From Oceaniferula marina (GTDB taxonomy: Bacteria > Verrucomicrobiota > Verrucomicrobiia > Verrucomicrobiales > Akkermansiaceae): a stretch of DNA of 64,000 nucleotides. Positions 6,417 through 56,247 of this stretch are shown one piece after another. Position numbers and translations under genes: made by a program. Position 1 is the first letter of the stretch; each line of letters begins with the position of its first letter. The stretch lies in NCBI RefSeq assembly GCF_013391475.1, contig NZ_JACBAZ010000006.1, positions 1 to 64,000 on the forward strand, given 5' to 3'. The notes under the pieces are model-generated. The model had not been told where the DNA came from, did not search any database, and saw only the letters and a program-made list of their open reading frames with translations.

Positions 6417-6572
6417 TCAGTTCATTTTCCGTTTTAAGATGCCGAAAATGGATTTGTGAAGGTGGAGTTCTCCAGCTTCGGCGCGGTTGATCAGGGCATT
6501 GAAATATCCGGCGGGTTTCGTTACTGGGTCATGGACCACAAAGAAATGACTGAAAAATAACGGAGTCTCCGA
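6417..6572 (-). pseudogene. Possible C-terminal remnant of a replication-type protein
   Basis: An uninterrupted minus-strand frame of 51 codons and a stop, without a start codon, reads ...VTKPAGYFNALINRAEAGEL... and ends LHLHKSIFGILKRKMN. The PxGYFxxLxxRAxxGEL pattern reminds me of the C-terminal end of plasmid RepC-like or HTH replication proteins. No upstream continuation is visible. The opposite strand is also open here, so this call is weak. Confidence 0.3.
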
Positions 6573-7177
6573 ATTTTAGCTGATTTTTGCTCCATCGGAC
6601 TCGCCAAACCACCCGCTCCTCGTGGCGCCTTTTCAAACAAGTCCCATCTCAAATGGCACGAACTCGAGCAATACGCATTCGCCATTTTACGATCAAAGAA
6701 TGGGGCTATGGCGACGAAGCTCCCAAAGCTCTTTAACCCGATAAGGGCTTCGGGCTTGTTGGTAGAGGCGGTATTGATGGCTGCCTGGGGACTGTTGAGA
6801 CTTCTTTTACATCGAGTTTAAATCACTAAAGATCGAGCCGAAAGTATGTCAACGAGTATGCCAATCTGAACTTCGCTAAAGTAAACAAAAGTGCACGAGA
6901 TGATTTTTAATTGTTCTCTGTGTCCTTTGTAGAATAAGGGATTGAAAGCCATGTGGGTAAGTTGGATGGGACGAGCCTTCGTCCACACTCAAAGATTAAG
7001 TCGTTCGGGTTTTAGTGGAACCTTCGATTGTTTTGACCCATCCGAGGGCTTGGAAGGTGTGGAGGGCTTGGAGGTAACAGGAGAGTGTGTTTTTATGGGG
7101 CTCATTCATATTTGGATTGTTTGGGGTGGGCGATGCGAGTGATTTGACAACAGAGTGGTTCTTTGTTGAATGGTTTT
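6573..7177. other. Long intergenic region, no intact gene
   Basis: About 600 bases. A plus-strand frame of roughly 80 codons around 6560-6825 has no start codon and no recognised motif. A 66-codon frame at 6942-7142 has a glycine- and tryptophan-rich, non-protein-like translation. With the possible remnant to its left, this looks like a decayed accessory locus. Confidence 0.4.
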
Positions 7178-8845
7178 ATGATCATTGGATTGGATTTCGA
7201 ACAGGCTGGTCGGTTGGGTCTTAGCAGGCAGAAGGGATATGCTTTTTTTTCTGCAGTCTTTTTCTTCTGTTTGCTGGGGATCTTGGCAACGCCACTGGTT
7301 GCTCAGCACGATGCCGGACGTAATGCCGTTCGTTTTTTAGCTGAGGGAAAATACGATCAGGCACTTAGAGAGGTGAACCGTAAAAAGCCCAAGCGCATGA
7401 ATAGCGATTTGGATCGGGCCGAGCGACAATTTGTGTTAGCCATGCACGCCAGTAAGCAAAAGAAGGTGTCCGAGGCTCTTGAGCATGCAAAGCAAGCGGT
7501 TGAATGGGGCCTGCCGTTTGAGCGCTTGCTTGCTGGCCCTCGTGATATTTTATCTCCCTTGTATGATTCGGAGAGTTTTAAAGAATGGAAGGCGAAGCAT
7601 ACGTATTCAGAGATTCTGCATGGGCCCATGCTTGGTGATGTTACGGGAGATTCAGCGAAAATTTGGTTGAGGACCGTTGATGAGGAAGAGATTCGAGTCG
7701 AACTGACACAAGATGGCAGCGCTCAGTCGGTGATGTCCTTGCCGGTGAGAAGCCGGGCCGAAGCGGATTATACAGCGGTCGTTCAGCTGAAGGGCTTATC
7801 CCCATCGACGCGCTACCGTTATCGTCTTTATCTTGGAGAAAAGAAGAGTGCGGTTTCTGGAGAGTTCAAGACCCAGGTGGCGGGGCGGTCAAAGGGGAAG
7901 CAGCGCATTGTCTTTGGTGGAGGGGCTGGATACACGGAAAAGTATGAGCGGATGTGGCATACGATTAAGGATCAGGAAGCTGATGCCATGCTGTTGCTCG
8001 GAGATAACGTTTATATTGACCATCCCGAATATAAGGAGACCCAGCAGTATTGTTATTACAGGCGTCATGCCAGAGCTGAGTGGAAGTCGCTGGTGTCAGG
8101 AGTTCCTGTTTACAGCATTTATGATGACCACGACTTCGGAACAGACGATTGCGTTGCTGGTCCGTTGGTTGACCGTCCTTCGTGGAAGAAACCTGTGTGG
8201 AATACGTTTTCTCACAATTGGAATAACCCATCATATGGAGGAGGTCGGGAGCAACCGGGGTGTTGGTACGATTTTCACCTTGGTGACGTCCATTTTGTCA
8301 TGCTGGATTGCCGGTATTATCGGGACTTGAAGGGGAAAAGCATGATCGGGCCGGCTCAGAAAAAGTGGTTGTTTGAGCGCTTGAAAAAAAATAAGGGCCA
8401 ATCTTCCTTTACGGTGCTGGTCTCATCCGTGCCATGGTCGTTCGGGACGAAGCATTCGTCCAAAGATACGTGGGATGGGTTTCCGGAGGAAAGGGAGGAA
8501 ATCTTTTCTTTTGTCGAAGACCAGCGTCTCGATGGTGTGTTTTTGATATCAGCAGATCGGCACAGGACGGATCTGTGGAGGACCCCCAGGGAAAGCGGAT
8601 ACCGATTTTACGAGCTTCAAAGTTCAAGGCTGACCAATGTGCATGTGCATCCGCTGATTCAGTCTTCTGAACCATCGGAAATGATTTACGGGTTCAACAA
8701 AACTTGCTCATTTGGGCAGCTCGACATCGATACCACAGCGGAAAACCCGTCTGTTGTTTTTTCAATCTATGATATTGATGGAAGATGTCATTACTCTCAC
8801 AAGGTGTTACGCAGTGAATTGACACACGGAAGCAAGCAAGAGTGA
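7178..8845 (+). CDS. PhoD-like metallophosphatase with helical N-terminal region
   Basis: 555 residues from the ATG; two TTG codons 10-15 bases upstream are alternatives. Neither has a clear ribosome-binding site. The N-terminus has a signal or anchor segment (YAFFSAVFFFCLLGILA), so the enzyme is exported. About 90 helical residues with a tetratricopeptide-like flavour follow, then a PhoD N-terminal beta domain and the PhoD metallophosphatase core. Metal-site motifs are LLGDNVY near 275, DDHDFG near 316 and SADRHRTD near 461. Expected to hydrolyse phosphomono- or diesters outside the cytoplasm. The helical insert before the PhoD module is not standard for PhoD. Confidence 0.85.
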   Translation: MIIGLDFEQAGRLGLSRQKGYAFFSAVFFFCLLGILATPLVAQHDAGRNAVRFLAEGKYDQALREVNRKKPKRMNSDLDRAERQFVLAMHASKQKKVSEALEHAKQAVEWGLPFERLLAGPRDILSPLYDSESFKEWKAKHTYSEILHGPMLGDVTGDSAKIWLRTVDEEEIRVELTQDGSAQSVMSLPVRSRAEADYTAVVQLKGLSPSTRYRYRLYLGEKKSAVSGEFKTQVAGRSKGKQRIVFGGGAGYTEKYERMWHTIKDQEADAMLLLGDNVYIDHPEYKETQQYCYYRRHARAEWKSLVSGVPVYSIYDDHDFGTDDCVAGPLVDRPSWKKPVWNTFSHNWNNPSYGGGREQPGCWYDFHLGDVHFVMLDCRYYRDLKGKSMIGPAQKKWLFERLKKNKGQSSFTVLVSSVPWSFGTKHSSKDTWDGFPEEREEIFSFVEDQRLDGVFLISADRHRTDLWRTPRESGYRFYELQSSRLTNVHVHPLIQSSEPSEMIYGFNKTCSFGQLDIDTTAENPSVVFSIYDIDGRCHYSHKVLRSELTHGSKQE

Positions 8846-8894
8846 GCGCAGGGAGTATTGGCAGTATGACGGCTTCTGAATATTATCCCATAGA

Positions 8895-10109
8895 ATGTTA
8901 AAAAATACGGTGTATGATCCGGCCATGCAGCGTGGAGCACTGGAATGTTTTTGGACTTCGTTGAAGCTGGGGCTTACCTCCTTTGGTGGGCCGGTCGCCC
9001 ACTTGGGGTATTTCCATGAAGTGTATGTCAAGCGGGAGAAGTGGCTTAGTGACGAGCGCTATGCGGAATTGGTGTCGTTGACTCAGTTTCTTCCCGGGCC
9101 GGGAAGCAGCCAGTTGGGAGCTGCGATTGGTTACGAACGCGCCGGCTGGTTGGGCTCACTTGGAAGCTGGCTGGGCTTCACTTTGCCCTCGGCTCTACTG
9201 ATGATTGGCTTTGCCATTGGGATGAGTAGCGTGCAGGAATGGTTGGGTTTGGGGTGGTTGCATGGCTTGAAAATTGCCGCCATTGCAGTGGTTGTGGTGG
9301 CTTTGTTTGGTATGCAGCAGAAGCTATGTACCGGCAAAAAAGAGGCAGTTTTTGCGATTGGTGCACTTTTGGTTTTGATGTTCACCAAACAGGCCTGGGT
9401 TCAGCCAGTGGTGATTCTGATTGGTGGGCTGGTCGGAGCTTTTGTGTTCCATGACCGTGCGGCCAAAGAGTGTGGGGAGAGCTTGGAAAAGAGAAGCTTC
9501 AAGGCGCGCTGGTGGCATAGTGTTGTTCCCGCCACATTGCTCATGGTGGTTTTGATGGCTGTGCCTGCCATGTTCCCGGAGAGTCGGGATGCCATGGCAC
9601 TGGGTGGGTTGATGCATGCGGGGGCCTTGGTCTTTGGCGGGGGGCATGTGGTCCTGCCTTTGCTCGAAACCTCGACGGTGGATGCCGGGTTGATGCCCAA
9701 GTATGAATTCTTGGCCGGTTATGGTGCGGCTCAGGCAGTGCCGGGGCCGATGTTTACCTTCTGTGCTTTTCTCGGGGCCGTGATGGGCTTGTTTGGTAAC
9801 CCATGGCTTGGGGGACTTGCGGGCTTGGTTGCTGTCTTTTTACCAGGGATGGTATTACTTGGTGGAGGTCTGCCAGTATGGGACCGAATGAAGCATTTTT
9901 CCTGGGCCAGGGCTGGTGTGCGCGGGGCGAATGCCACGGTGGTTGGCGTGCTTGGAGCTGCTCTGGCGGCGATGTTTTTTGGTGGTAGCGTGTCCAGCAT
10001 TTGGGACGTTCTGGCTATTGTGCTCCTTGTTCTCGCTTTGCATTTCAGGTGGCTCCCGGTTTGGGCGCTGGTGGTATTGGCTGCGGTGATCGGGGCCTTT
10101 GGCCTGTAG
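8895..10109 (+). CDS. chrA: Chromate transporter, ChrA family (two-domain)
   Basis: 404 residues, the length of the long-chain ChrA/CHR family with two homologous membrane halves. The first half has LKLGLTSFGGPVAHLGYFH and LTQFLPGPGSSQLGAAIGYE. The second repeats the pattern with GALVFGGGHVVLPLLE and AAQAVPGPMFTFCAFLGA. About 10-12 hydrophobic segments are visible. The family exports chromate or related oxyanions, though many members have other or unknown substrates. An ATG 10 codons downstream is an alternative start. The gene ends 5 bp from a convergent isomerase gene. Confidence 0.92.
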   Translation: MLKNTVYDPAMQRGALECFWTSLKLGLTSFGGPVAHLGYFHEVYVKREKWLSDERYAELVSLTQFLPGPGSSQLGAAIGYERAGWLGSLGSWLGFTLPSALLMIGFAIGMSSVQEWLGLGWLHGLKIAAIAVVVVALFGMQQKLCTGKKEAVFAIGALLVLMFTKQAWVQPVVILIGGLVGAFVFHDRAAKECGESLEKRSFKARWWHSVVPATLLMVVLMAVPAMFPESRDAMALGGLMHAGALVFGGGHVVLPLLETSTVDAGLMPKYEFLAGYGAAQAVPGPMFTFCAFLGAVMGLFGNPWLGGLAGLVAVFLPGMVLLGGGLPVWDRMKHFSWARAGVRGANATVVGVLGAALAAMFFGGSVSSIWDVLAIVLLVLALHFRWLPVWALVVLAAVIGAFGL

Positions 10110-10114
10110 AGCGA

Positions 10115-10888
10115 CTATTCAGGAGAGCAGTATTGGATAGCCTTGGCTAGAAAGGTAAAGGGGTCATCGGTGCTGGGGACATATTCCTGGCCGATGAAGC
10201 CATGGAAACCTGTGTCGGCAATGGCCCGGGTGATGGCGGGATAGTTGAGCTCCTGGGTGGCGTCGAACTCATGGCGTCCAGGAACTCCGGCCGTGTGGTA
10301 GTGCGCGATATGCTGGTGGTTTTCCCGGATCGTGCGAATGATGTCTCCTTCCATGATCTGCATGTGGTAGATGTCATAGAGAAGTTTAAAAGAGGGGGAG
10401 TTGAGGCGTTCGCAGAGTGAGGCTCCCCAGCTTGTCCGATCGCACTGGTAGTCAGGGTGGTCCACCTTGGAATTGAGCAGTTCCATGACTAGGGTGACTT
10501 GGTGTTGTGCTGCGAGTTCAACCATCGGGGCGAGGCCTTTGGCGCAGTTCGCGAGCCCTTCTTCGTCGCCGAGACCATCCCGGTTGCCGGAGAAGCAAAT
10601 CACTTGTTTCACCCCGAGCTCTGCAGCTGCAGGGATCAGTTGTTGATAGATCCGGCGCAGTGCCGGGTGGTAAGCGGGTTGGTTAAACCCTTTTTCAATG
10701 GTTCCGATACCGTCCTGATCCGGGTGGGCTGCAGTGATGGAGCAGGCTAGTCCGAGTTGCTGGACTTCGGGTATCTCTTCCAGTGTAAGTAAGTCGATGC
10801 CTGAGATCCCGAGTTGTTGGCATCGGTGGCAGAGTTGGTCGATTGGAGTGGATGCAAAGCACCAGCGGGAAACAGAGTGATGGATCAT
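10115..10888 (-). CDS. hyi: Hydroxypyruvate isomerase-like TIM-barrel protein
   Basis: 257 residues, the size of hydroxypyruvate isomerase (Hyi) in the xylose isomerase-like TIM-barrel superfamily (AP_endonuc_2). Metal and catalytic segments are recognisable: MELLNSKVDHPDYQCD supplies the first Glu, LLYDIYHMQIMEGD the Asp/His pair, YHTAGVPGRHE the substrate-side residues, and IGQEY the last Glu. It would interconvert hydroxypyruvate and tartronate semialdehyde, but close relatives act on other sugars or keto acids. Cytoplasmic. It stands alone and converges on chrA. Confidence 0.78.
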   Translation of the reverse strand: MIHHSVSRWCFASTPIDQLCHRCQQLGISGIDLLTLEEIPEVQQLGLACSITAAHPDQDGIGTIEKGFNQPAYHPALRRIYQQLIPAAAELGVKQVICFSGNRDGLGDEEGLANCAKGLAPMVELAAQHQVTLVMELLNSKVDHPDYQCDRTSWGASLCERLNSPSFKLLYDIYHMQIMEGDIIRTIRENHQHIAHYHTAGVPGRHEFDATQELNYPAITRAIADTGFHGFIGQEYVPSTDDPFTFLAKAIQYCSPE

Positions 10889-44061: not shown

Positions 44062-44365
44062 AAGCAATAAATACAAAAAGAGTTGTGATGCATGATAGTA
44101 GGAGCTCAGGGAGGGACTTGAGTTGCGCACACTGCTGTCGTTATTTCGAGGAAGCTGTTGAAGTGCAACGTCCCAGCCCCCTCTGGTCAGAGGACGGCGG
44201 TATGGGTATGGATGAGTAACACATTTTGGTATTTGGTCATGGAATATGCTCCTTAATGTGATTATTACTGATGCAGTTGAATTTAGCCCAATGCAGTTTT
44301 GTATTTTGAATACAGGCTTTGCATTTTACATGTACACACACAGTATTACATACATTGCCAACGTT

Positions 44366-45961
44366 ATGAACACAAAGCCGAGAATTCTTATAGTTGATGA
44401 CGAACGCCTTAACATTAAGGTTTTATCGGATCTGTTGAAGTCCAACTATAAGATAATGGCTGCTATCAATGGTAAACAGGCTCTCAAGGCTGCTCGGGGT
44501 GAAAATCCTCCAGATCTAGTATTACTCGATATCATGATGCCTGAAATGGATGGCTATGAAGTATGCCGACAGTTGAAAGCAGATACTTTAACGAAAGATA
44601 TTCCTATAATGTTCGTGACAGCAATGGGGGAAGAGGAGGACGAGACTAAAGGTCTAGCTCTTGGTGCTGTAGACTATATCACGAAGCCGGTTGTTCCTGC
44701 CGTTGTTGAAGCTCGAGTTAGATCCCACGTAGCACTTAGGAGAAATATGCTTGAGCTGGAAGATGCGTATAAGCTCATCGAATCTCAAAAGACACGAATG
44801 CAAGGTGAGCTGGATGTTGGGCACAAGATTCAAATGAGCATGCTTCGCCAAGACTCTCCATTCTACCCAGACCGTAAGGAGTTTTCATTAGCAGCAACGA
44901 TTGTCCCAGCACGTGAAGTAGGTGGAGATTTATATGATTTTTTCTTTATCGATCCTGATCGACTTTGTCTTTGTATTGGTGACGTTTCAGGAAAAGGGGT
45001 GCCTGCGGCACTCTTTATGGCTGTTTCTAAAACTCTGATAAAGTCCCGGGCATTAAGCGATGGCTCACCAGCAAGTGTAATGACCTTTGTTAACGATTCT
45101 CTATGCGAAGGTAATGAGGCTTGTATGTTTGTTACTCTGTTCTTTGCTGTTTTGAATATAAAAACGGGTGAGTTGGTCTATTCAAATGCTGGGCACAACC
45201 CACCTAATATTAAAAAAGCGAATGGTGATGTCATTCTGTTGCCTGAACGCCACGGAATGGTGTCAGGCGCCATGGAAGGGATGGTATACGGTGAAAGTAG
45301 TGTTACCCTTGAGAGCGGCGATATCCTTGTTACTTTCACTGACGGGGTGACGGAGGCTATGGACCCCGAAGGAAACCTTTATTCAGAGAGGCGCCTCGAA
45401 GGTCTTCTTGCGTCCGAGCAACTCGTTGATAGTGTGACTATCAACGCCGCTGTCTTCGATGATGTGAAAAAATTTGAACAAGGTGCAGGGCAAGCTGATG
45501 ATATTACATTGCTTAGTTTGCTTTACAGGGGCTACACACCGACTTCGACGGATGGAAGTTTTTCGATGACTATCAAGAATGACCTTTCAGAGTTGCCAGG
45601 TTTTCTTGATGCATTTGAGCTATTTGCTGACGAAAAACAGTTATCCATGGCAGTTGCTTGTAATTTGGGGGTAGCCTTCGATGAGTTGCTGACTAATACC
45701 ATTTCCTATGGATATGAAGATGGGGAACAACGTGAGATAGACATCACCGTAGATATTCATGCGGATCATGTCACCGTAGTATTGTGTGATGATGCAGCGC
45801 CTTTTAATCCTTTCACTCGTGAGGATCCAGATACCACATCTTCCCTAGATGAACGTGAAATTGGAGGTTTGGGTATTCATCTCGTGAAGAAGTTGATGGA
45901 TGAAGTGGGATACGAGAGGAAAGTAAACCAAAACGTTTTAACGCTCACTAAACGAATTTAG
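44366..45961 (+). CDS. Response regulator-SpoIIE phosphatase-anti-sigma kinase fusion
   Basis: 531 residues from the ATG MNTKPRILIVDDERLNIKV; 40 upstream codons are open but not protein-like. REC domain: acidic DDE near 10-12, phospho-acceptor Asp55 in LLDIMMPEMDG, and the Lys of ITKP. A short coiled helix leads to a SpoIIE/RsbU PP2C domain (about 155-400) with IVPAREVGGDLYDFF, GDVSGKGVPAALFMA, SNAGHNPP and GVTEAMD. The C-terminus (about 405-531) is an RsbW-like ATPase with an intact N box (AFDELLTNTISYGY), a DDAAPFNP loop and GGLGIHLVKKLMDEV. Phosphatase and kinase arms on one chain would set the phosphorylation state of a STAS partner; a STAS gene lies two genes downstream. Confidence 0.93.
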   Translation: MNTKPRILIVDDERLNIKVLSDLLKSNYKIMAAINGKQALKAARGENPPDLVLLDIMMPEMDGYEVCRQLKADTLTKDIPIMFVTAMGEEEDETKGLALGAVDYITKPVVPAVVEARVRSHVALRRNMLELEDAYKLIESQKTRMQGELDVGHKIQMSMLRQDSPFYPDRKEFSLAATIVPAREVGGDLYDFFFIDPDRLCLCIGDVSGKGVPAALFMAVSKTLIKSRALSDGSPASVMTFVNDSLCEGNEACMFVTLFFAVLNIKTGELVYSNAGHNPPNIKKANGDVILLPERHGMVSGAMEGMVYGESSVTLESGDILVTFTDGVTEAMDPEGNLYSERRLEGLLASEQLVDSVTINAAVFDDVKKFEQGAGQADDITLLSLLYRGYTPTSTDGSFSMTIKNDLSELPGFLDAFELFADEKQLSMAVACNLGVAFDELLTNTISYGYEDGEQREIDITVDIHADHVTVVLCDDAAPFNPFTREDPDTTSSLDEREIGGLGIHLVKKLMDEVGYERKVNQNVLTLTKRI

Positions 45962-45979
45962 ATTTAATCGAGGCTATTT

Positions 45980-47776
45980 ATGGATAAGGATACACTTAGA
46001 AACTTGGTGAAGTGGTTAGATGCTATATTTCCTCCTTTTCGGGAGACTGAGCGGGTTAAACCTAAAAACATGCTCTATGTAGCGCACGAAAATCCCACAA
46101 TGGGGACTGCGTTTGCAGTCGGGGCCCAGCATGCAGTGGTTTTGCTTATGTTGGCGATTTATGCAGTGATCGCAGGTCAAGAATTAGAGTTTACAGAGGG
46201 GCAGCTTCGTGGCTTTGTCTCGGTGGTAATTGTTGCTGCTGGTATAGCGACTTTCTTGCAGTCAACTAAAACTAGATTTGGTTCGGGCCACTTAATAGTT
46301 CACAATCCAAGCCCTATTGGCATGGCTGGCTTCATAGCTGTAAGCTCGACCTATGGGATTGGAGCAGCAACTGGAGCCCTCATTGTTTCTGGGATTGTGG
46401 TGATAGCACTTGCGCGGGTTCTCCCGAGCCTTCGTTCAATCTTCCCTGCGGAAGTTGCTGGAGTGCTTCTTGTCCTACTTGGGCTGAGTTTGGTTGAAGG
46501 GGGGGTCAGTCGTTATACTGGACTGAATGGGGGTAGCATAAATAGTGCGTCTACAATTATTGCATCTGTTACACTCGTTTCCATTATTGGTCTTTCGATT
46601 TGGGCTGGTGGACGCTTAAAGTTGTTCGCTATTGTTATTGGTGCTATCGCAGGATTGATAACAGCCGCACTGATGGGCGAGTTTGGGCACGAACAAATGG
46701 CGGTAGTCTCTCAGCAGCCACTCGTTTCTTTTCCGTTTGGTGGAGGATTTGAGATTCCAATGCCTAAATTTATCCTAGGTGCAATTATTCCGATTCTTTT
46801 AATCGAGGTGATCTCGGCTATAGATAGTATTGGAACTGGGGTTGCTATTGATAAGATCAATAATGCTAAGTGGCATCGTGCTGATATGCCTATGATTGGA
46901 AGGACTGTTACTTGTCATGGTATTGGTGTGTTTTTTGCTGGTTTAATGGGGACCATGTCGATTGGAACATCATCGGCTAACCTTGGGCTTGCCCACGCAT
47001 CGGGTGTTGCAGCTAGGAAAGTAGGTCTGGTTACAGGGGCTATTTTAGTAGTTGTGGCCTTCTTGCCTCAGGTGTCGACCTTTCTCACACAGATCCCACA
47101 GCCTGTAGTAGGGGCTATCGTATTATATACAGCTGGTTATATGTTGGTAGCTGGTATGGAATTAGTTTTATCCCGTATGATTAATAGCCGGCGAACTTTC
47201 ATGATTGGACTTGGCATAGCTGTCGGAGCGGCCGTACTACTCATGCCTGCGCTTACTGCCGGTGCTCCAGAGGGGCTTAAGCCAATTGTTGGCTCTGCGC
47301 TGACGATGGGAACGGTGACGGCCATTATACTCAACCTGATTTTTCGGATTGGCATCTCACAGACCGGTACAATGCAGCTTACTGGGGTTGAGTCGCTTAC
47401 ACAGTTAACTGAATTCTTAGAGGAAAAAGGAGAAGACTGGGGTGCTCGGCATCAAGTAATGATGCGGGCTGGCATGGCTGTTGGTGAAGCTATCGAGAAG
47501 TTGAATGGAACCGCTGTTTGTACTTGGCCTGTTGATTTGAAGGCATCATTTGATGAATACAAAGTAACGGTGGAACTGAAATACGAGGGGCACCCTATTA
47601 ACATGACGCCAAAAACTAAGGTTTCTCTGGAAGACTTGATGGATGATGATGATGACGAAGCTTTGGATGCTCTAGTTTCCAACGCTTCTGGTATTCTCAT
47701 TGGTCAGCTTGCTGACAAAGTAGAGTCAAAAGCAGATGGTAAGCATTCAACTCTTAGACTTGACTTTGACCACTAG
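45980..47776 (+). CDS. NCS2-type permease with C-terminal anti-sigma-kinase-like domain
   Basis: 598 residues, about 130 more than a normal uracil/xanthine permease. Residues about 40-460 form a membrane domain of some 12-14 segments with NCS2/SLC23 features (NPTMGTAFAVGAQHAVVLLM, VISAIDSIGTGVAIDK, MSIGTSSANLGLAHASGVAA, PQPVVGAIVLYTAGYM). The last 130 residues resemble an RsbW-type ATPase fold: helix AGMAVGEAIEKLNG at the N-box position, strands FDEYKVTVELKYEG, and the closing GILIGQLADKVES, KHSTLRLDFDH. The N-box Asn is replaced by Lys and the glycine-rich box is missing, so it is probably catalytically dead. An acidic DDDDDE run lies near 555. It starts 18 bp after the phosphatase gene with GAGG upstream. 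Confidence 0.85.
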   Translation: MDKDTLRNLVKWLDAIFPPFRETERVKPKNMLYVAHENPTMGTAFAVGAQHAVVLLMLAIYAVIAGQELEFTEGQLRGFVSVVIVAAGIATFLQSTKTRFGSGHLIVHNPSPIGMAGFIAVSSTYGIGAATGALIVSGIVVIALARVLPSLRSIFPAEVAGVLLVLLGLSLVEGGVSRYTGLNGGSINSASTIIASVTLVSIIGLSIWAGGRLKLFAIVIGAIAGLITAALMGEFGHEQMAVVSQQPLVSFPFGGGFEIPMPKFILGAIIPILLIEVISAIDSIGTGVAIDKINNAKWHRADMPMIGRTVTCHGIGVFFAGLMGTMSIGTSSANLGLAHASGVAARKVGLVTGAILVVVAFLPQVSTFLTQIPQPVVGAIVLYTAGYMLVAGMELVLSRMINSRRTFMIGLGIAVGAAVLLMPALTAGAPEGLKPIVGSALTMGTVTAIILNLIFRIGISQTGTMQLTGVESLTQLTEFLEEKGEDWGARHQVMMRAGMAVGEAIEKLNGTAVCTWPVDLKASFDEYKVTVELKYEGHPINMTPKTKVSLEDLMDDDDDEALDALVSNASGILIGQLADKVESKADGKHSTLRLDFDH

Positions 47777-47860
47777 GAAATACAATGTTCATTTAGATTT
47801 CCTTCAAAGGTTATCCTGTCTAAGGAACTATTATTAATAACACAAAGAAGAACCAAAGCT

Positions 47861-48190
47861 ATGCTTGTTGAAAAACGCGGAGAAGTAACCATCCTAGCCC
47901 CTAGGCACCGAGTAGACACAAATAACTCGCCTGAGGTTGAGAAGGTGATTCAGGAAAACATCGGAGGTGGTGAAGCTAGACTGGTCCTTGATTTTGCACA
48001 GGTGGACTATGTGTCGAGTGCTGGCCTCAGGGTTTTGTTGAAGACTGCGAAGCAGATTAAAGTAGGTGGTGGTCGGCTGGCTTTGTGTGGGCTCAATGAG
48101 CAGATTAAGGAGGTTATGGAAGTCAGTGGTTTTATGAATATTCTAGACTGTTACGATAATCTCGACAGTAGCATCGGCGCTATTTCCTAA
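47861..48190 (+). CDS. STAS-domain anti-sigma factor antagonist (1)
   Basis: 109 residues, a complete STAS domain like SpoIIAA/RsbV. The conserved helix segment VDYVSSAGLRVLL contains the Ser that RsbW-type kinases phosphorylate and SpoIIE-type phosphatases dephosphorylate. A second typical stretch is LALCGLNEQIKEVMEVSGF. It lies 84 bp after the permease and is probably co-transcribed with the phosphatase-kinase fusion. It is the natural substrate of that protein, and might also contact the kinase-like tail of the permease. No sigma factor follows. Confidence 0.92.
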   Translation: MLVEKRGEVTILAPRHRVDTNNSPEVEKVIQENIGGGEARLVLDFAQVDYVSSAGLRVLLKTAKQIKVGGGRLALCGLNEQIKEVMEVSGFMNILDCYDNLDSSIGAIS

Positions 48191-48255: not shown

Positions 48256-50508
48256 TCAGGAGAGTTTAACTAGCCGCTTGTAGTTGCTGCCGAGTGCGCC
48301 GAATTGATCTTTTAATTGGTCCATGTGTCCAGTTGTTGACACTAAAAGCCCCCTCACCGAAGGTGGAAGAGTGTGTTCGCCGTTGAGATAGCGTTCACGA
48401 ATCCCGCTCATGCTCGAACCTTCACCTGCAGTCAGGTTTTCGAGAATCTGAAGATCCTCTTCAGACGGGGAAACCGCAACGTCTTTTAGTGTCATTAGAA
48501 TGGCATCTAGGCCTTCAATAGCAACACCGGCAAGATTGCGAGTAGCGTCAACTTCTTCTAAACCTCTTAGCTCTTTACCCATTGCTTCAAGAGTGTGATT
48601 CATAGATTCCATGATTCGCTGATTATCAGAAATCACATTTAGTCGTTCAAATTCCTTGGTAGCAAGTGTTCCTGATACAGACAATTTTTGCAGCATTTTC
48701 TCAATAATCTCATAGAGAACTTTGAATGACTCGTGGAATGCCTTGATGGACATTATATCCCGGTGCTCTCTTAATGCGTTGAAGGAATGCGACATGATAT
48801 CCAGGAGGCGAGCTTGCTCTGAAGCGAGTAAATCAAGCGAGAGGCCAGGATCATCGAGAGAGAATTTATCCAAGAATTGTAAACGTGCGGTTTCATTAGC
48901 GAGGAGGCGCGACTTATTGATGCGGTCAACCATTAGAGAGGCAGCATGACTATTTCCATCAAGGATGAATTCATGATTAAACTCATCAAGTTCTTCTTTC
49001 TCCTCATCGTTAAGAACTTTAGCGATAACTTTAAGTTTAGGGTCGATGATAGAGATCGAAGCTGTGATCTCTTTGATACGATCGATTTCATCAGCCGTCA
49101 CGACGGTACTCATGGCTTTGCCAATGTTGAGCCTTTCTAGAATGACTCGATCAGAAGCGTCACCAAACACAACCATCTTATTTTCTTTGCGTGCTTTGAT
49201 GTAATCGTCAGTATTGTCAGTAACCACGACATGTTTGATCTTTGCATTGTCGAGGTTGTCTGAGACGGCTCTGCCGAAACTATCGTAGCCGCACAGAATT
49301 ACATGTTCTCCAAGAACATCATCTTCTGAAATTTGATCATCATCGAGACTTTCGGAAGTGAATATGAGTGCTATCCGATCAGCATTACTAATGAGGAAAG
49401 GGGTGCAAATCATCGAACACACTACGGTGATCATTACTGTTTGGCAGATAGTCGGATCGAGCATCTGGGTTGACATCAGTAACGAAAAAACGACTAGAGA
49501 AAACTCGCCAATCTGAGAGAGTGTGATGGCTGTTTTAAGAGCGCTTTTCTTTCCCTGCCAGATTGCCAGCAACAGATAAATAACCAGAGCCTTAACAAGC
49601 ATAATGCCAGCAAGGAGCATAATTATGGTAAGAATTTTCTCTCCTACTAAATTTAGATCGATCTGCAGACCCACGGATACAAAAAAAACGCCGAGCAGAA
49701 GATTGCGGAAGGGGATTAGGTCGGCTTCAACCTCATACTTATAGATGGTGTCAGCTAGCATCATTCCACCGATAAAGGCACCAAGAGAGAAGGAAAAACC
49801 AAAGTGATGCGCCAGATACGAGGCTCCGATGACTACCAGTAGAATAGTGCCCATCGAAATTTCTTTCGAATTGGTGGTAGCCACTACCTTAAAAATTCTG
49901 GCCAGAAAGAACCGGCCAATAATAATTAGAATGGCAAGAACGATGAGGGCATTAATGGCAGTTTCGCCGAGTAGAACTCCAATGGATTTGTCATCATTTG
50001 TGAACAGAGTCACCATCAATAGAATAGGGATAACCGCTATGTCTTGAAATATAAGGATGCCCAATGAGTTGCGTCCAAACTCAGCTTTAATTTGCCCTGA
50101 TTCGTTAAGGATCTTGAGTACGATGGCTGTTGAAGACAAGGCTAAGCCTAAGCCTGCTATGATCGAGGACTTGGCGGAAAGATCAAATAGAGTGGTTGAA
50201 ATTATAGCAAATGCTGCACCGGTAACGACGACCTGCAGTAGCCCGAACAAAAAAACCTCGCGCTTCATACTTAATAGATGATTAGCGGAGAATTCGAGTC
50301 CGATAGTAAACATTAGGAACACGATTCCAAACTCTGCTATGTGCTCGAGTTCTTTATTACCGTGATGTTCAATGCCCATCACCGCGCCGATTATTGCACC
50401 GGCAATAATATAGCCAATAACAGTAGGGATGTTGAACTTACGTAAGATTACGTTTAGTAATGTCGCAACTGCCAAGGTGGCTATTAGGATCGGTATAAGA
50501 TGTTCCAT
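48256..50508 (-). CDS. CPA2 cation/proton antiporter with RCK and helical C-terminal domains
   Basis: 750 residues. Residues 1-385 are a KefB/KefC-like CPA2 transporter of 12-13 helices (VIGYIIAGAIIGAVMGIE, GIVFLMFTIGLEFS, LGLALSSTAIVLKIL, GILIFQDIAVIPILLM). An RCK/TrkA-N domain (about 400-540) follows, but its nucleotide loop reads CGYDSFGRAV instead of GxGxxG, so ligand binding may differ. The last 200 residues are predicted all-helical, with repeated Glu/Leu patterning recalling PhoU-like bundles on Na/Pi cotransporters. Likely potassium or sodium exchange for protons under cytoplasmic control. Transcribed leftward, downstream of the second STAS gene (150 bp gap). Confidence 0.88.
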   Translation of the reverse strand: MEHLIPILIATLAVATLLNVILRKFNIPTVIGYIIAGAIIGAVMGIEHHGNKELEHIAEFGIVFLMFTIGLEFSANHLLSMKREVFLFGLLQVVVTGAAFAIISTTLFDLSAKSSIIAGLGLALSSTAIVLKILNESGQIKAEFGRNSLGILIFQDIAVIPILLMVTLFTNDDKSIGVLLGETAINALIVLAILIIIGRFFLARIFKVVATTNSKEISMGTILLVVIGASYLAHHFGFSFSLGAFIGGMMLADTIYKYEVEADLIPFRNLLLGVFFVSVGLQIDLNLVGEKILTIIMLLAGIMLVKALVIYLLLAIWQGKKSALKTAITLSQIGEFSLVVFSLLMSTQMLDPTICQTVMITVVCSMICTPFLISNADRIALIFTSESLDDDQISEDDVLGEHVILCGYDSFGRAVSDNLDNAKIKHVVVTDNTDDYIKARKENKMVVFGDASDRVILERLNIGKAMSTVVTADEIDRIKEITASISIIDPKLKVIAKVLNDEEKEELDEFNHEFILDGNSHAASLMVDRINKSRLLANETARLQFLDKFSLDDPGLSLDLLASEQARLLDIMSHSFNALREHRDIMSIKAFHESFKVLYEIIEKMLQKLSVSGTLATKEFERLNVISDNQRIMESMNHTLEAMGKELRGLEEVDATRNLAGVAIEGLDAILMTLKDVAVSPSEEDLQILENLTAGEGSSMSGIRERYLNGEHTLPPSVRGLLVSTTGHMDQLKDQFGALGSNYKRLVKLS

Positions 50509-50658: not shown

Positions 50659-51000
50659 TTAGGATGATTTAATATAGTTGCAGGCTTCCTCAAGCGTATC
50701 AAAATGTGCCATCGTTGGAAGGAATCCGCTGTTGCTCAGAATGTTTATTATCACTTCGTTTGCTACGCAAAGAGCAAATTTCCCCTTTGATTTTTGTAAT
50801 GATTGCTGGGTGATAAGCAAAGTACGAAGCCCAGAGCTGCAAACAAAAGTTGTATCAGTGAAATCAATGATTACTTTATTCGCTCCGCTATCGAGAGTTT
50901 TTTGTAATAGTTCTTCAGCTTGATCGGCATTAGCTGAGTCCCAGCGGGCAACAGGGCTTACAATAGTGATATCTTCTTGCTGGCTAACATTGATTTTCAT
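50659..51000 (-). CDS. STAS-domain anti-sigma factor antagonist (2)
   Basis: 113 residues. STAS fold with the acceptor segment TTFVCSSGLRTLLI and the later KFALCVANEVIINILSNSGF. Clearly related to the first STAS protein (47861-48190) but divergent, so it is not a recent duplicate. It is encoded between the antiporter and the giant sensor kinase, all leftward. Either STAS protein could be a substrate of the SpoIIE-type phosphatase or of the separate PP2C at 56320-57180. Confidence 0.92.
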   Translation of the reverse strand: MKINVSQQEDITIVSPVARWDSANADQAEELLQKTLDSGANKVIIDFTDTTFVCSSGLRTLLITQQSLQKSKGKFALCVANEVIINILSNSGFLPTMAHFDTLEEACNYIKSS

Positions 51001-51114: not shown

Positions 51115-54100
51115 TTAGGGATTGGGCAGGATATCCTTTTGTAAATCTAGTAGAGTCTGTTGAGCGTCTTCAAATGCAAATGACCTCACCTGAGTGGTGA
51201 GCTTTGATAAGAGTCTTGTAGTAATATGTTCTGAAATGAGTTCAGAAAGTTCGGCTACAGTATCCTCAGCATCAGGATCCATTTCTGCCAGCAAATCATT
51301 TAGTGTAGAAATGATGATTTTGACATTTTTAATGTCTAGGGGGGCTTTTTCAGAATGTTTATCTGTAGTATCTCGTTCAATCGCCCAAGTAGCAGGCAAA
51401 GCGTCCATTAGCGGGTTCATGACACTCTCAAACTGCTCATATGCTGACTGTTTCGCGTCTTCATCGGAACTCTTAAGGGCTGACTCCAGTGATTTGGACA
51501 CTTTTTGAAGTTCTTGGGCTCCAATTGTTCCAGCGATACCCTTGATGGTATGAGCTGTACGAACAGCAGCAGCTTGGTCCTTACTGCTCATACAGGACGC
51601 TATCAATGCTGAATCATGTCTGTGATCGTCATAAAAATCCTTTAATAGTTTACTGTATAATTTGTGATTTCCTCCTACATTTTTCAATCCTTTTTCGAAG
51701 TCGATTCCTGGGATCTGATTAGGAAGGTCATATCGTCCAACCATTGGTATCGGCTTTTTATGAGAATCATTTGCTGGTTGATGTTTCGCTGGAATCCATT
51801 TCAGCAGAGTGGTGAACAGAAAGTTAGGGTCGATAGGTTTGGCAATGTGCTCATTCATTCCATGATCAAATGCAGCTTGTCGGTCTTCGGTTGTGGCGTT
51901 GGCCGTCATGGCAATTATCGGGAGGTCGTTGTATTTAGTATTCGACCTGATTTTCTTAGTTGCCGTATATCCATCCATTACAGGCATTTGGATATCCATC
52001 AGTATGGCCTCGTATGTATTTTTCTCGAGCAAATCCAGAGCTTCTTGACCATGATTGGCAATCTCAATATCAAGGCCACCTTGTAATAGTAGTTCGCTAG
52101 CCACCTGCTGGTTAATCTGGTTATCTTCAACCAGCAGAACACGAGCACCCGCAATGGGTGCTAAATCGACCGTCATGTTGCTCTTGTCCTCACATCTTCG
52201 TGTCGAGGATCTGTGCGAGAGATTGTTACCAAACGCTTCCATAGAAGCGTCAAACAGATGGGATGGGCTAATCGGTTTAGTTAATATACCATCGGCATAT
52301 TCAGAACCCTTTTTCTTAGAGAGTTCATTTTGAGCAAAGGCTGAAATCAAAATCACCTTAGGGATCTTTGTCAGGTTCATTTCAGATTTGATTTTAATGG
52401 TGGCATCTATTCCGTTCATCCCTGGCATTAACCAATCCATTGCTATAAGGTCAATGTCGTGCTCTTTGATTACAGCAAAGGCCTGTTCTGCATTGTCAGC
52501 AGTTATAACGTTGAAACTAAATGACGTAAAGTAGTGGGTTAGAATCTCTCTAGAAGTTAAGTTGTCGTCTACTACTAGGGCATTTAGTCCTCTCAGATCG
52601 GGGGAGGGAGAAAAGTCTCCGCGAGAATCAGTCGATTTGCCCCGTTTTAGAACCGCTGTAAAGCTGAACGTGCTACCGTGATCAGGTATGCTTTCGACCC
52701 AGATTTTTCCACCCATCATTTCAACGAGCTGCTTACAAATTGCTAAGCCTAAACCAGTTCCTCCGTATTTACGAGTAGTCGAGGAGTCAGCTTGGGAGAA
52801 AGACTGGAACAATTTGCTCATTTGCTCATCGGTCATGCCTATTCCGGTGTCGCTTACCGAGAATTTTAATTTTACGCCGGCATGGGATTCCGACTCTTTG
52901 GTAATACGCAATACCACCTCACCTCGATCAGTAAATTTGACCGAGTTATTAGCTAAATTGATAAGAATTTGTCCTAGTCTGAGGGGGTCGCCAAGCAGGG
53001 AGGATGGAACGGAGTCCCCACGATCGAATAGAAGCTCTAATCCTTTTTCTTGTGTTTTCACGGACACAACAGTCGCAACTTGATCCAGTACATCATCAAC
53101 CATAAATGGCACTTCCTCCATATCGAGCTTGCCAGCTTCGATTTTAGAAAAATCAAGAATGTCATTAATGATTCCTAGAAGCGATTTTGAGGACTGGTGC
53201 ACCTTAGAGATATAGTCACGTTGTTTATCGTCCATCTCGGTCCGTAAACATAAATCACTCAAGCCAATGATCGCATTCATGGGAGTTCGGATCTCATGAC
53301 TCATATTAGCAAGGAAATCGCTTTTTGCCTTGTTTGCTGCATCAGAAGCTTCCTGAGCTTTCTTTAATTCTTGAGCTGATTTAAACCGCTCATAAACTCT
53401 ACCAAGTTGATCTCCCAAGTTGCCCATCACCTGAAGGATGCTAGGTTCTGATGCACTGGAATTGCGTTTAATGAATTCTAGAACAGCAATGACTTTGCCG
53501 TTAGCGAGAACAGGGAAGCCTATTCCGCTTCCATCAAGATCGATTTTTTCTGAGGAGTTTTCATCGAGATGAAGATTCTCTATCCACTCAGGTTTGCCTG
53601 ATTTTAGCACATGGCCAGCTATGCCTTTTCCTCTGATTAACGTGGCATCATAAGCATTCTGAATGAATTTCGCAAAATAGTCCTCGTCCTTTACATGCCA
53701 GATATCAGTGGAACGTAACTCGGAATGCTTCTCATTCCACAGGTAAGCATGACCGAGTTCCCAGTTCATATAACTACAGATCATCCCTGAGACTTTATCT
53801 AGGGCTTCTTCGAAATTAGATGCTTCCGCTGCTAGGCTTGGCCCTCGATCTAGGAGCTTTGCTTCTAGCGCGACTTTGTGCTCTCTCTCTTCCATCTCTT
53901 TGCGCTCCGTTAGGTCACGCAATAAACCAATAAATATTTTTTCGTTATCAAGGGTAAGCTCTGAAACCTTAAGCTCGAGAGGAAATGTCGTGCCATCATG
54001 GCGCACTCCCTCTACTTCTCGGGTATTGCCTACAATGGTTGAAGGCTGTGCAGGACGGTAATTATTTAAGTGATCATCATGGTTGGCTGCAATTGCTTTT

Positions 54101-56247
54101 GGCATAAGTATTTTTACATTCTTGCCAACCGCTTCTTCCGCCTTATAGCCAAATATTTCCTCTGCAGCTTTGTTGAATATCTGCATGCGGCCCTGAGTGT
54201 CAATGGTGACAATGCCATCAGCACTAGATTGAATAATTGCACTAACGCGTTTCTCGCTGTTACGCATTTTGCCTTCTGAGTACTGCAGGTGCTTATTTGC
54301 AATGGCCATGCGGACGCGGCTCCAAGCAAATATACCTGTTAAAATTGATAACAAGACACATGAAAAAGCCATTGTCCAGAATGCCTGCCTTCTAATGTTT
54401 TTGATTGATTCGTAGGCCTCAGAATAATCGATCTCTGAACAAACCCCAAATCCAAGCTCTTCATCCCAAGTCCAAGTTCCAATAACTGGGACTCCACGAT
54501 AATCATTATATGCATCCAAATTACGCCCAACCTTACCTGCGGTTGCGTTCTCAGCCATGTGGGTCAACGGAAAATCCTGATGACCATCAGATGGACGGAA
54601 CCCCTCTACCATATTACCTCCTGGGTCACGAATTTCAATATTAAGGATTCCTCGTTCGCCGGGTTTAATGAGTTCGATCTGCCTCAGGTCTTGGTCGAAG
54701 CGGCTTTCACTAATTAGCTGACCTCTACGGTTGAAGGCGTAACTTTCACCAGAGTCACCGACTCGTCCGCGTTGGAGGATACCAGTGAACTCTTCTTCCG
54801 GATTGATGAGAAAAATCAGCACTCCATCTTTTCCTCCCTGACCTTTTACCTTAGCTCCAGCGAGCATGGTCGCACGCGGCTTTAGCATTAGTCCATTTGG
54901 AAACCATTGAGCTGGGAGTCCGAAGGAGCTGTAGCGTGGCCCGCGTAGCACGTCGCTAACAAAGCTTATATCTTCTGACCTCTTGGTTTGATGACTAAGC
55001 ATTATGTTCTTATCACTTCCGACCACTCTTCCATTAGGGGTGATTAACAAAAACCCCTCATACCTCTTCTCTGTCATCAACGGCTCTAGAATGATCCTTA
55101 GGCGCATTTGTTCTGCAGCATTAACAAGGTCAGTATCATTCTCAGAAAGGCTGCTATAGAGTTGTGAAACCTCTGGTAAACCGGCCCATGATCGAACTTC
55201 TTGTTCTCTTTCTACACACCAATGTTTGGCAGCTTTGGAAGTAGTCCCGAGAACTGTGTCTAATGTGTTGCGTAGATCTCTTTTTTCACTATCAACAAGG
55301 TGAGTCATGTTTCTCCATGAGATCCCGGCAATTAGCCCGATGGCTACTAATGAAGCTGCAAGAAGAGGCCAACTTTGAACAACACCAGCAATGATGAGGC
55401 TGCTTTTCTTATCTGTGATGCTTGACGGTTTTACTTTTTGTTGATTGTTGTCCTTGTTGTTTTTAAAGTGTTTGAAGGCTGAAACGATCAAAAATAAAAT
55501 AACGATAATAGAACAGATGCCGATGCACATGACGATCAGCAATAGGCCTTCACCTTCAAGTGTTAACTGATCGAGTTCTAATTGTGTGCGACTATCAACG
55601 GACGCATTCACCTCATCAATTAAAGCCATGATGGAGGCCTTGGTTTTATGGTAGTCATTTCCATATAGAAGGCTATGCGCCAGCTTTAAATCTGGGTTTC
55701 CCCGTTGCGTGTATTTGCCGGTGTTATCCAAGAAAATACCTTTCACTGCATACATAGCTTCTTGCTCGAACATCGATAATTTGTTCGATGTCTCTTGAGC
55801 TTTCCTTAGTAGCTGGAATTCATCCTCCGAAAAGCCTGCATCCTCCATCAGAACCCTAAGAGCAATAGCCTTTTCGTCTGACCTCGGTTTGTCCCCAGTG
55901 GCAACTACATAGTCCCAGTAAATAGAACTATAATTGATAGGGCGGGGGGCTTCGCCTCTACGAATCGCCAATATTCTGTTAAAGTATTCCTCGTATCGAG
56001 AGTCGCCAGTAGCGGCATAAGTCCGAGCCATGCGTGTCAAATCATCGGATGTTTGACGTAGGTGATCAACCAACTGCAACGATTCCAGTCGCTTAATCTT
56101 CGCTGCTCCTGCTGTATCGTTATTGGCGACATAGAGTTGGGTAGTATAGGAACCCGTTCCTACCAGCATGAGGAGTAGAATTAATAATGCTGATAATTGA
56201 AACTCACTAGCCCGCTTTTCGCGATTGTCGCGTACGCTTCTACTCAT
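51115..56247 (-). CDS. Giant hybrid histidine kinase (PAS-GAF-HisKA-HATPase-REC-REC-Hpt)
   Basis: 1710 residues. Membrane segments at about 15-37, 235-258, 288-310 and 620-645 enclose two large extracytoplasmic sensor regions, the second Cache-like (about 315-615). Inside are PAS (about 660-775), GAF (about 800-955), HisKA with His984 in LANMSHEIRTPMNAI, and HATPase with NLANNSVKF, DTGIGM and YGGTGLGLAICKQL. REC1 has Asp1271 in AMDWLMPG, REC2 has Asp1418 in LMDIQMPVMDG, and a C-terminal Hpt domain has His1566 in AHTIKGIAG. All phosphorelay residues are present, so a full His-Asp-His relay to a separate receiver is possible; the REC domain of the SpoIIE fusion at the other end of the island is a candidate. 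Confidence 0.93.
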   Translation of the reverse strand: MSRSVRDNREKRASEFQLSALLILLLMLVGTGSYTTQLYVANNDTAGAAKIKRLESLQLVDHLRQTSDDLTRMARTYAATGDSRYEEYFNRILAIRRGEAPRPINYSSIYWDYVVATGDKPRSDEKAIALRVLMEDAGFSEDEFQLLRKAQETSNKLSMFEQEAMYAVKGIFLDNTGKYTQRGNPDLKLAHSLLYGNDYHKTKASIMALIDEVNASVDSRTQLELDQLTLEGEGLLLIVMCIGICSIIVILFLIVSAFKHFKNNKDNNQQKVKPSSITDKKSSLIIAGVVQSWPLLAASLVAIGLIAGISWRNMTHLVDSEKRDLRNTLDTVLGTTSKAAKHWCVEREQEVRSWAGLPEVSQLYSSLSENDTDLVNAAEQMRLRIILEPLMTEKRYEGFLLITPNGRVVGSDKNIMLSHQTKRSEDISFVSDVLRGPRYSSFGLPAQWFPNGLMLKPRATMLAGAKVKGQGGKDGVLIFLINPEEEFTGILQRGRVGDSGESYAFNRRGQLISESRFDQDLRQIELIKPGERGILNIEIRDPGGNMVEGFRPSDGHQDFPLTHMAENATAGKVGRNLDAYNDYRGVPVIGTWTWDEELGFGVCSEIDYSEAYESIKNIRRQAFWTMAFSCVLLSILTGIFAWSRVRMAIANKHLQYSEGKMRNSEKRVSAIIQSSADGIVTIDTQGRMQIFNKAAEEIFGYKAEEAVGKNVKILMPKAIAANHDDHLNNYRPAQPSTIVGNTREVEGVRHDGTTFPLELKVSELTLDNEKIFIGLLRDLTERKEMEEREHKVALEAKLLDRGPSLAAEASNFEEALDKVSGMICSYMNWELGHAYLWNEKHSELRSTDIWHVKDEDYFAKFIQNAYDATLIRGKGIAGHVLKSGKPEWIENLHLDENSSEKIDLDGSGIGFPVLANGKVIAVLEFIKRNSSASEPSILQVMGNLGDQLGRVYERFKSAQELKKAQEASDAANKAKSDFLANMSHEIRTPMNAIIGLSDLCLRTEMDDKQRDYISKVHQSSKSLLGIINDILDFSKIEAGKLDMEEVPFMVDDVLDQVATVVSVKTQEKGLELLFDRGDSVPSSLLGDPLRLGQILINLANNSVKFTDRGEVVLRITKESESHAGVKLKFSVSDTGIGMTDEQMSKLFQSFSQADSSTTRKYGGTGLGLAICKQLVEMMGGKIWVESIPDHGSTFSFTAVLKRGKSTDSRGDFSPSPDLRGLNALVVDDNLTSREILTHYFTSFSFNVITADNAEQAFAVIKEHDIDLIAMDWLMPGMNGIDATIKIKSEMNLTKIPKVILISAFAQNELSKKKGSEYADGILTKPISPSHLFDASMEAFGNNLSHRSSTRRCEDKSNMTVDLAPIAGARVLLVEDNQINQQVASELLLQGGLDIEIANHGQEALDLLEKNTYEAILMDIQMPVMDGYTATKKIRSNTKYNDLPIIAMTANATTEDRQAAFDHGMNEHIAKPIDPNFLFTTLLKWIPAKHQPANDSHKKPIPMVGRYDLPNQIPGIDFEKGLKNVGGNHKLYSKLLKDFYDDHRHDSALIASCMSSKDQAAAVRTAHTIKGIAGTIGAQELQKVSKSLESALKSSDEDAKQSAYEQFESVMNPLMDALPATWAIERDTTDKHSEKAPLDIKNVKIIISTLNDLLAEMDPDAEDTVAELSELISEHITTRLLSKLTTQVRSFAFEDAQQTLLDLQKDILPNP

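Follow-up and report, generated by a model that had tools for sequence, protein, structure and literature searches.

An NCS2-fold permease with a predicted RsbW-like pseudokinase tail in a STAS/SpoIIE operon of Oceaniferula marina

Introduction

Partner switching is known mainly as transcription control, and the STAS domain is said to have been described by Aravind and Koonin in 2000 as common to SLC26 carriers and anti-sigma antagonists. The subject of this work is a three-gene operon in a 64,000-nucleotide stretch of DNA (hereafter the window) of Oceaniferula marina (Verrucomicrobiota), corresponding to positions 1 to 64,000 of contig NZ_JACBAZ010000006.1. The operon encodes a fusion of response regulator, SpoIIE phosphatase and HATPase_c_2 kinase, a permease of NCS2 fold with a C-terminal tail resembling RsbW and SpoIIAB, and a stand-alone STAS protein. 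On balance, we slightly favour the view that these genes form a partner-switching module with the transporter as its target.

The closest described systems each share part of this arrangement. With RsbW, SpoIIAB and UsfX (HATPase_c_2), the permease tail shares the full-length fold (Z of 12-13) and, in most homologues, the N-box Glu facing the STAS serine, but it is covalently attached to a transporter, lacks the ATP-related Asn and Asp in 69 homologues and scores below the Pfam cut-off. NCS2/NAT (SLC23) carriers such as UraA, UapA, SVCT1 and PbuX have PF00860 and the UraA/UapA fold in common with the permease, which differs from them by its putative C-terminal pseudokinase and by the replacement of Glu by Asp in transmembrane helix 8 (TM8) and of Gln/Glu by Ala in TM10. 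SLC26/SulP carriers have a related fold (SLC26Dg) and a STAS domain within their regulatory logic, but this domain stands in cis, whereas the window permease carries an RsbW-type domain of the STAS-binding type and is accompanied by a separate STAS protein with a phospho-acceptor serine. MlaB is also a STAS protein, and to our knowledge the MlaFEDB system contains neither an RsbW-like domain nor a SpoIIE switch. In MlaFEDB, the separate STAS protein is associated with an ABC transporter (PMC7790496), a transporter type different from the NCS2-fold permease. CapK/CapS combines a GHKL kinase with a conserved-Ser STAS protein and controls a target other than a sigma factor (PMC13373217), but its output is a transcription repressor, versus a membrane carrier in the window system.

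Results

Structure prediction confirmed residues 465-598 of the permease as a GHKL domain with the predicted fold of the RsbW/SpoIIAB anti-sigma subgroup. The AlphaFold2 model of the tail (28 tails; pLDDT 86.5, pTM 0.78) showed the element order helix-helix-strand-strand-lid-helix-strand-strand, and all the Foldseek matches in the PDB at E <= 0.001 (13/13) were anti-sigma kinases. VIA Z scores were highest for UsfX from the UsfX-RsfB complex (13.4), RsbW (12.3) and SpoIIAB (12.2), followed further down by LvrC (10.1), SiaB (10.0) and histidine kinases (8.7 or lower). Profile comparison showed similarity to HATPases: an alignment of 32 homologous tails (A4) compared by hhalign with seven genuine HATPases from switch genes near tailed permeases (A5) scored 48.4 over 118 columns, whereas shuffling the columns of A5 100 times gave no score above 18.2 and reversing it gave 13.2. 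In this register, the N-box of the neighbouring HATPase is opposite AVGEAIEKL, and LGIHLVKKLMDEV is opposite GILIGQLADKV. An earlier note on this DNA, made from its letters, had drawn this same alignment by eye between the permease tail and the RsbW-like end of the neighbouring fusion; the RsbW/SpoIIAB fold that it anticipated was recovered by AlphaFold2, Foldseek and VIA, and the HATPase similarity stood far above the controls.

The kinship emerged when profiles or structures were compared, and only weakly in single-sequence Pfam searches. The isolated tail matched HATPase_c_2 over positions 6-125 of 127 (E = 0.019) with 15.4 bits, under the gathering cut-off of 27.4 bits, and the full-length permease showed no HATPase_c_2 match in Pfam even at E 10, matching its permease family and, weakly, two more. 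Of the 32 homologous tails, 11 matched HATPase_c_2 (best E 3.6e-4), the commonest family; the runner-up was matched by 4. PDB sequence searches with the tail or the tail profile gave chance-like matches and no relative, and no meaningful family came up for the tail in NCBIfam. The tail profile reached in turn a genuine, Pfam-confirmed HATPase_c_2 protein (L102), two proteins assigned by frame length only (L103 and L104) and a cyclase-HATPase protein (L160). The last of these, at 6540-8318 (-) of its stretch, combines a guanylate-cyclase domain with a genuine HATPase_c_2 domain in one fusion and adjoins a STAS gene.

Conserved residues were counted in 69 tailed proteins, representing 68 distinct genes (L057 and L135, one and the same gene, were both counted). 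We take the N-box Asn, the DxG Asp and the G2 glycines to be the ATP-related motifs of these kinases. Asn was absent from the N-box Asn position in all tails (0/69; Ala 31, Leu 10, Thr 6, Lys 4, others), as was Asp from the DxG position (0/69; Tyr 52, His 10, Trp 2, Phe 1, gap 4), and a position in the G2-glycine region was Ser/Ala in 57/69 and Gly in 3/69. The two residues expected for Mg-ATP in an RsbW/SpoIIAB kinase are missing from the window tail, which has Lys507 and Tyr535 in their places; the Lys and the lack of a DxGxG-type loop had been read correctly in the earlier note, whose interpretation of the tail as a pseudokinase is supported by this loss of ATP residues across the homologues. 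That the tail is instead an active kinase or ATP-binding domain, for which its fold and its N-box Glu might speak, is hardly credible with both residues missing in 69/69 tails and glycine so rare in the G2 region.

The N-box Glu was retained in 52/69 tails. It corresponds to Glu49 of RsbW (in the 6m36 chain, a single offset of 4 fits Asp42, Lys44, Ser48 and Glu49), which in the crystal structure of RsbW with RsbV is in contact with Ser56, the RsbV residue that RsbW phosphorylates (PMC7340262). The residue facing the STAS serine thus outlives those holding ATP, kept in no tail. The tails also have a conserved set of their own, composed of Trp487 (66/69), Gly537 (63/69), Asp579 (62/69), Asp525 (61/69) and Glu506 (57/69). 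In the alignment, this set might suggest a tail sensing a different small ligand in a nucleotide pocket altered by Tyr in place of Asp and by a Glu next to the Asn position; we consider this very unlikely, and ligand sensing and STAS docking would be mutually compatible.

As judged from the ratio of nonsynonymous to synonymous substitution rates (dN/dS), the tail is under purifying selection, with values of 0.067-0.075 vs. 0.063-0.091 for the membrane part in three pairs among the Desulfuromonadales-type loci L034-L036; pairs involving the window permease were saturated. A charge swap at the STAS contact was also considered. The position of RsbW Asp42 was Arg/Lys in 51/69 tails, and position 84 of the STAS protein, where RsbV has Arg87, was Glu/Asp in 22 of 25 tabulated STAS domains. 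This swap was retained only as a hint, because the acidic residue is also present in STAS proteins not adjoining tailed permeases (L160, 4hyl) and the Asp42 equivalent is missing too in 7/7 of the A5 kinases.

The genes around 69 tailed permeases, grouped in 41 clusters at 60% identity, were scanned over usually about 6 kb per side; flanks were much shorter at some contig ends, and some "absent" labels are therefore unsure. Three partial permeases (L050, L128, L138) and the non-permease L160 were left out of these counts. STAS and/or SpoIIE genes were found near the permease in 16/41 clusters (26/69 entries) and STAS genes in 14/41 (24/69 entries), within 300 bp in 10/41, one of which (L037) was a broken STAS piece. 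No switch genes were detected at E 1e-3 in 15 untailed NCS2 loci (three of them short stretches of 3.5, 8.1 and 10.8 kb) or in 40 arbitrarily placed 14-kb stretches, 39 of them from tailed-permease genomes, which were hand-placed at round coordinates and not randomly generated (Fisher P of 1.9e-5 for 14/41 vs. 0/40, and 0.006 vs. 0/15). Since the STAS, HATPase and SpoIIE profiles had been built from neighbours of tailed permeases, the background was rechecked with Pfam, which gave 94 STAS matches across 20 genomes totalling about 77 Mb by rounded sizes. This corresponds to about 1.7% per 14-kb stretch, an estimate that is raised because most of these genomes had been chosen for a STAS gene near the permease. 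Pfam also confirmed the neighbour domains of nine proteins adjoining tailed permeases. The label "switch genes near" changed 14 times on a quick tree, so the STAS/SpoIIE link recurs or persists in many lineages.

Positions 44246-48190 of the window encode together, on one strand, a STAS protein with a phospho-acceptor Ser, a SpoIIE-type phosphatase and an RsbW-type kinase, which is the set of parts of a partner switch. The three parts are also encoded together at L034-L036, L040, L052, L139 and L151-L154. The window shares with L034-L036 the order SpoIIE-HATPase/permease/STAS; other orders were HATPase/STAS/permease/permease (L040), STAS/permease/HATPase (L046), STAS/permease/SpoIIE (L054, L056), SpoIIE/STAS/permease (L137) and permease/STAS/HATPase (L154). 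The serine motif SSA[GA][LI] was present in 23 of the 25 tabulated STAS domains, the exceptions being the broken L037 piece and the second STAS protein of the window. The window fusion has the kinase boxes ELLTN and GGLG as well as phosphatase motifs, presumably serving its kinase and phosphatase functions, and the true start of its gene may lie downstream of 44246. Its HATPase, the only whole-domain HATPase_c_2 match of the genome (four others are partial), is thus the likely kinase acting on the STAS protein of the operon. The genome contains five SpoIIE and six STAS matches in total; the idea that the window STAS protein is its only small one was dropped, as a second one in the window and another on contig C10 exist. 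The C10 match is close to a further SpoIIE-type phosphatase (8169-10161).

The main rival to a transporter target is reverse flow, with the permease as a sensor whose conformation or substrate load would tune the hold of the tail on the STAS protein. Free STAS protein would then act elsewhere, on the kinase-phosphatase fusion or on a distant regulator, and couple substrate availability to signalling. The same genomic linkage is consistent with this, as are the permease being the sole match to its sequence in the genome and the varied regulation in which STAS-only proteins act according to a review; the known neighbours tabulated (STAS, SpoIIE, HATPase) nevertheless provide it with no output target, and we consider it somewhat unlikely. 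An annotated extracytoplasmic function (ECF) sigma factor and ChrR-type anti-sigma factor at L032 of Azospirillum thermophilum (8931-10222 (-), about 1-2.5 kb downstream of the permease) might be counted for a sensor, though they are not RsbW-type partners. This permease has no STAS gene nearby, and the pair fits neither a target nor a sensor in a simple way.

The whole-permease AlphaFold2 model was closest to UraA (VIA Z of 40.0 over residues 32-461) and UapA (39.6 over residues 30-458), followed by SVCT1 (37.4) and SLC26Dg (32.5). Together with the PF00860 match, this places the permease in the NCS2/NAT (SLC23) fold family; unlike in SLC26/SulP carriers, its C-terminal domain is GHKL and not STAS. 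In UraA, uracil is held by Glu241 and Glu290 (PMC5539350), which correspond in structure alignments to Asp282 and Ala333, so the TM8 Glu and the TM10 Gln/Glu of the NCS2 family are both replaced in the window permease. Among 50 tailed permeases, the TM8 site was D in 24, K in 11, R in 10, N in 3, and E and H in one each, and the TM10 site was A in 21, S in 19, T and G in 4 each, and V and I in one each, with Gln or Glu at TM10 in none (0/50). In 13 outgroup untailed NCS2 proteins, TM8 was E in 13/13 and TM10 was Q in 11/13 and G in 2/13. Three untailed proteins within the tailed clade have K at TM8 and S at TM10, so the altered substrate site goes with the clade and not with the tail itself. 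The "NCS2-type" of the earlier note thus holds for the fold, and not for the nucleobase-binding residues; with these altered, nucleobase uptake is not to be assumed, and proteins automatically named "solute carrier family 23" may not carry nucleobases.

Tailed permeases are a sparse but broad subfamily (Deltaproteobacteria, Alpha- and Gammaproteobacteria, Verrucomicrobiota) and no one-off. Among 25 loci retrieved from GTDB species contigs, 23 were tailed (L057 with a partial tail), one was cut by the contig end (L050) and one was tail-less (L058). Their hosts were Desulfuromonadales and a Deltaproteobacteria metagenome-assembled genome (69-71% identity), Smithella, Lamprocystis, Elusimicrobia, Roseomonas, Azospirillum, Fodinicurvata, Pseudooceanicola, Opitutaceae, Rhizobiales and Gammaproteobacteria. 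The tail was present in 4/386 other genomes of the phylum of the window, and in none of 57 nearer relatives, which gave one weak tail-less NCS2 match. It was found in 13/345 genomes of the phylum of G429 (17 matched, including three RsbW-length stand-alone frames and one 82-aa fragment), 9/249 of the order of G447 (10 matched, including one cyclase-HATPase) and 6/274 of the class of G448, the named genome included in each case.

In a quick membrane-domain tree of 66 rows, where the long branches L162, L163 and L165 are of unsure placement, 50 tailed proteins formed one large group enclosing three tail-less members, with two changes in tail presence. The tail-less members are L158 (9275-10615 (+)), which adjoins a tailed copy, L166 and L167. 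All three proteins of the window operon are 61-71% identical to those of L034-L036 (for the fusion, the phosphatase and kinase part only, as a contig end cuts the L034-L036 fusion and places the receiver part outside the comparison). This identity to Desulfuromonadales-type loci, together with the lack of the permease in nearer relatives, suggests that the operon was likely acquired horizontally. On plasmid pTs417 of Candidatus Thiodictyon (L031, 922-1446 (-)), a 175-aa frame matches permease residues 438-588, that is, the last transmembrane helix and the tail, and lacks the remainder of the carrier. It adjoins a STAS gene, has two full tailed permeases nearby, and may be either a remnant or a stand-alone tail. 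No Pfam domain was found in the in-frame extensions upstream of L048 and L155, which were examined as potential natural fusions.

The features of the operon are collected in Table 1. A promoter and terminator scan was uninformative (7 and 3 sites vs. 7.2 and 3.5 in shuffled sequences). Convergent to the STAS gene, a CPA2-type cation/proton antiporter with a TrkA_N domain is encoded at 48256-50508 (-). The second STAS protein of the window (50659-51000 (-)), with the deviating motif C-S-S-G, adjoins a 1710-aa hybrid histidine kinase (51115-56247 (-)) with PAS, GAF, HisKA, two receiver and Hpt domains; this kinase is a possible source of input for the receiver of the SpoIIE fusion.

Table 1. Positions of the operon genes, domains and key residues in the window.
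Feature	Position	Strand	Basis
Response regulator–SpoIIE phosphatase–HATPase_c_2 kinase fusion	44246..45961	+	all three domains above Pfam cut-off
Fusion, REC (approx.)	44384-44719	+	Pfam
Fusion, SpoIIE (approx.)	44954-45520	+	Pfam
Fusion, HATPase (approx.)	45578-45952	+	Pfam
Tailed NCS2-fold permease, 598 aa	45980..47776	+	PF00860 E 8.8e-40; AlphaFold2 pLDDT 85.0
Permease membrane domain, residues 30-461	46067..47362	+	alignment to UraA/UapA structures
TM8 acidic position, Asp282	46823-46825	+	structure alignment
TM10 position, Ala333	46976-46978	+	structure alignment
Predicted pseudo-HATPase (RsbW/SpoIIAB-like) tail, residues 465-598	47372..47773	+	hhalign, AlphaFold2, Foldseek, VIA
N-box Glu, Glu503 (equivalent to RsbW Glu49)	47486..47488	+	alignment
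N-box Asn position, Lys507	47498..47500	+	alignment
DxG Asp position, Tyr535	47582..47584	+	alignment
Stand-alone STAS protein, SpoIIAA/RsbV type	47861..48190	+	PF01740 E 4.3e-19; TIGR00377 above cut-off
Likely phospho-acceptor Ser53 of the STAS protein, in DYVSSAGLR	48017-48019	+	aligned with SpoIIAA

Discussion

From the parts encoded, the predicted fold of the tail, its lost ATP residues and the linkage of the genes on one strand, we infer that a phospho-regulated STAS protein most likely docks on the tail and sets transport. Support for binding between the tail and the STAS protein is circumstantial, coming from the recurring STAS/SpoIIE neighbourhood and the mostly kept STAS-facing Glu. 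In the proposed mechanism, input at the receiver domain would set the phosphatase-kinase fusion, whose kinase half would phosphorylate the STAS protein and whose phosphatase half would dephosphorylate it upon receiver input. The unphosphorylated STAS protein would dock on the tail, as RsbV does on RsbW, and the phosphorylated form would leave. Docking beside the last membrane helix may then alter the activity of the elevator transporter, which is probably a dimer. Such a system would amount to a split and switchable counterpart of the SLC26/SulP carriers.

Several observations weigh against a transporter target. The untailed locus L167 gave a weak HATPase match (E 0.0069) outside the 1e-3 limit, and the control counts may be low because the profiles came from tailed-permease neighbours. 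No genuine kinase was found within the stretch scanned at L054, L056, L127 and L137, the N-box Glu is gone in 17/69 tails, and the tail evolves somewhat faster than the membrane part (identity of 88-92% vs. 92-95% in the L034-L036 pairs). A permease acting as sensor also fits the same data. Finally, 25/41 clusters had no switch gene in the flank covered, so there the partner may be encoded elsewhere or the tail may work alone.

These 25 clusters, and the three tail-less members inside the clade, would suit a structural tail, that is, an RsbW-like dimerisation or stability domain clamping the transporter dimer with no STAS partner; RsbW dimerises via alpha1 and beta1 (PMC7340262), and UraA, which belongs to SLC23, is dimeric (PMC5539350). 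We regard such a tail as unlikely, as it leaves unexplained both the STAS/SpoIIE linkage, with its controls of 0/15 and 0/40, and the STAS-facing Glu outliving the ATP residues. A structural tail and a ligand sensor are both weaker rivals than a permease acting as sensor.

Among the titles and starts of abstracts listed for the open-access literature searched (with subscription papers and preprints mostly outside the search), no RsbW-like tail on an NCS2 carrier was reported. The parts are known; what appears to be new is a transporter carrying a putative pseudo anti-sigma kinase within a STAS/SpoIIE operon. If the transporter is the target, a subfamily with its own kinase-like docking partner, encoded beside the STAS protein and the phosphatase, would be a case in which the switch controls membrane transport directly. 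The broader conclusion, that a widespread class of UraA-fold carriers no longer resembling nucleobase transporters is gated by STAS docking in trans on a pseudo-RsbW tail, is put forward tentatively, as possible. If it is true, SLC26 and the tailed carriers would be two solutions to one design, with STAS fixed in cis in the former and switchable in trans in the latter, and pseudo-RsbW domains would be receptors that extend partner switching to targets beyond sigma factors. Tailed permeases would also offer a tractable handle on the long-standing question of what STAS domains do to transporters.

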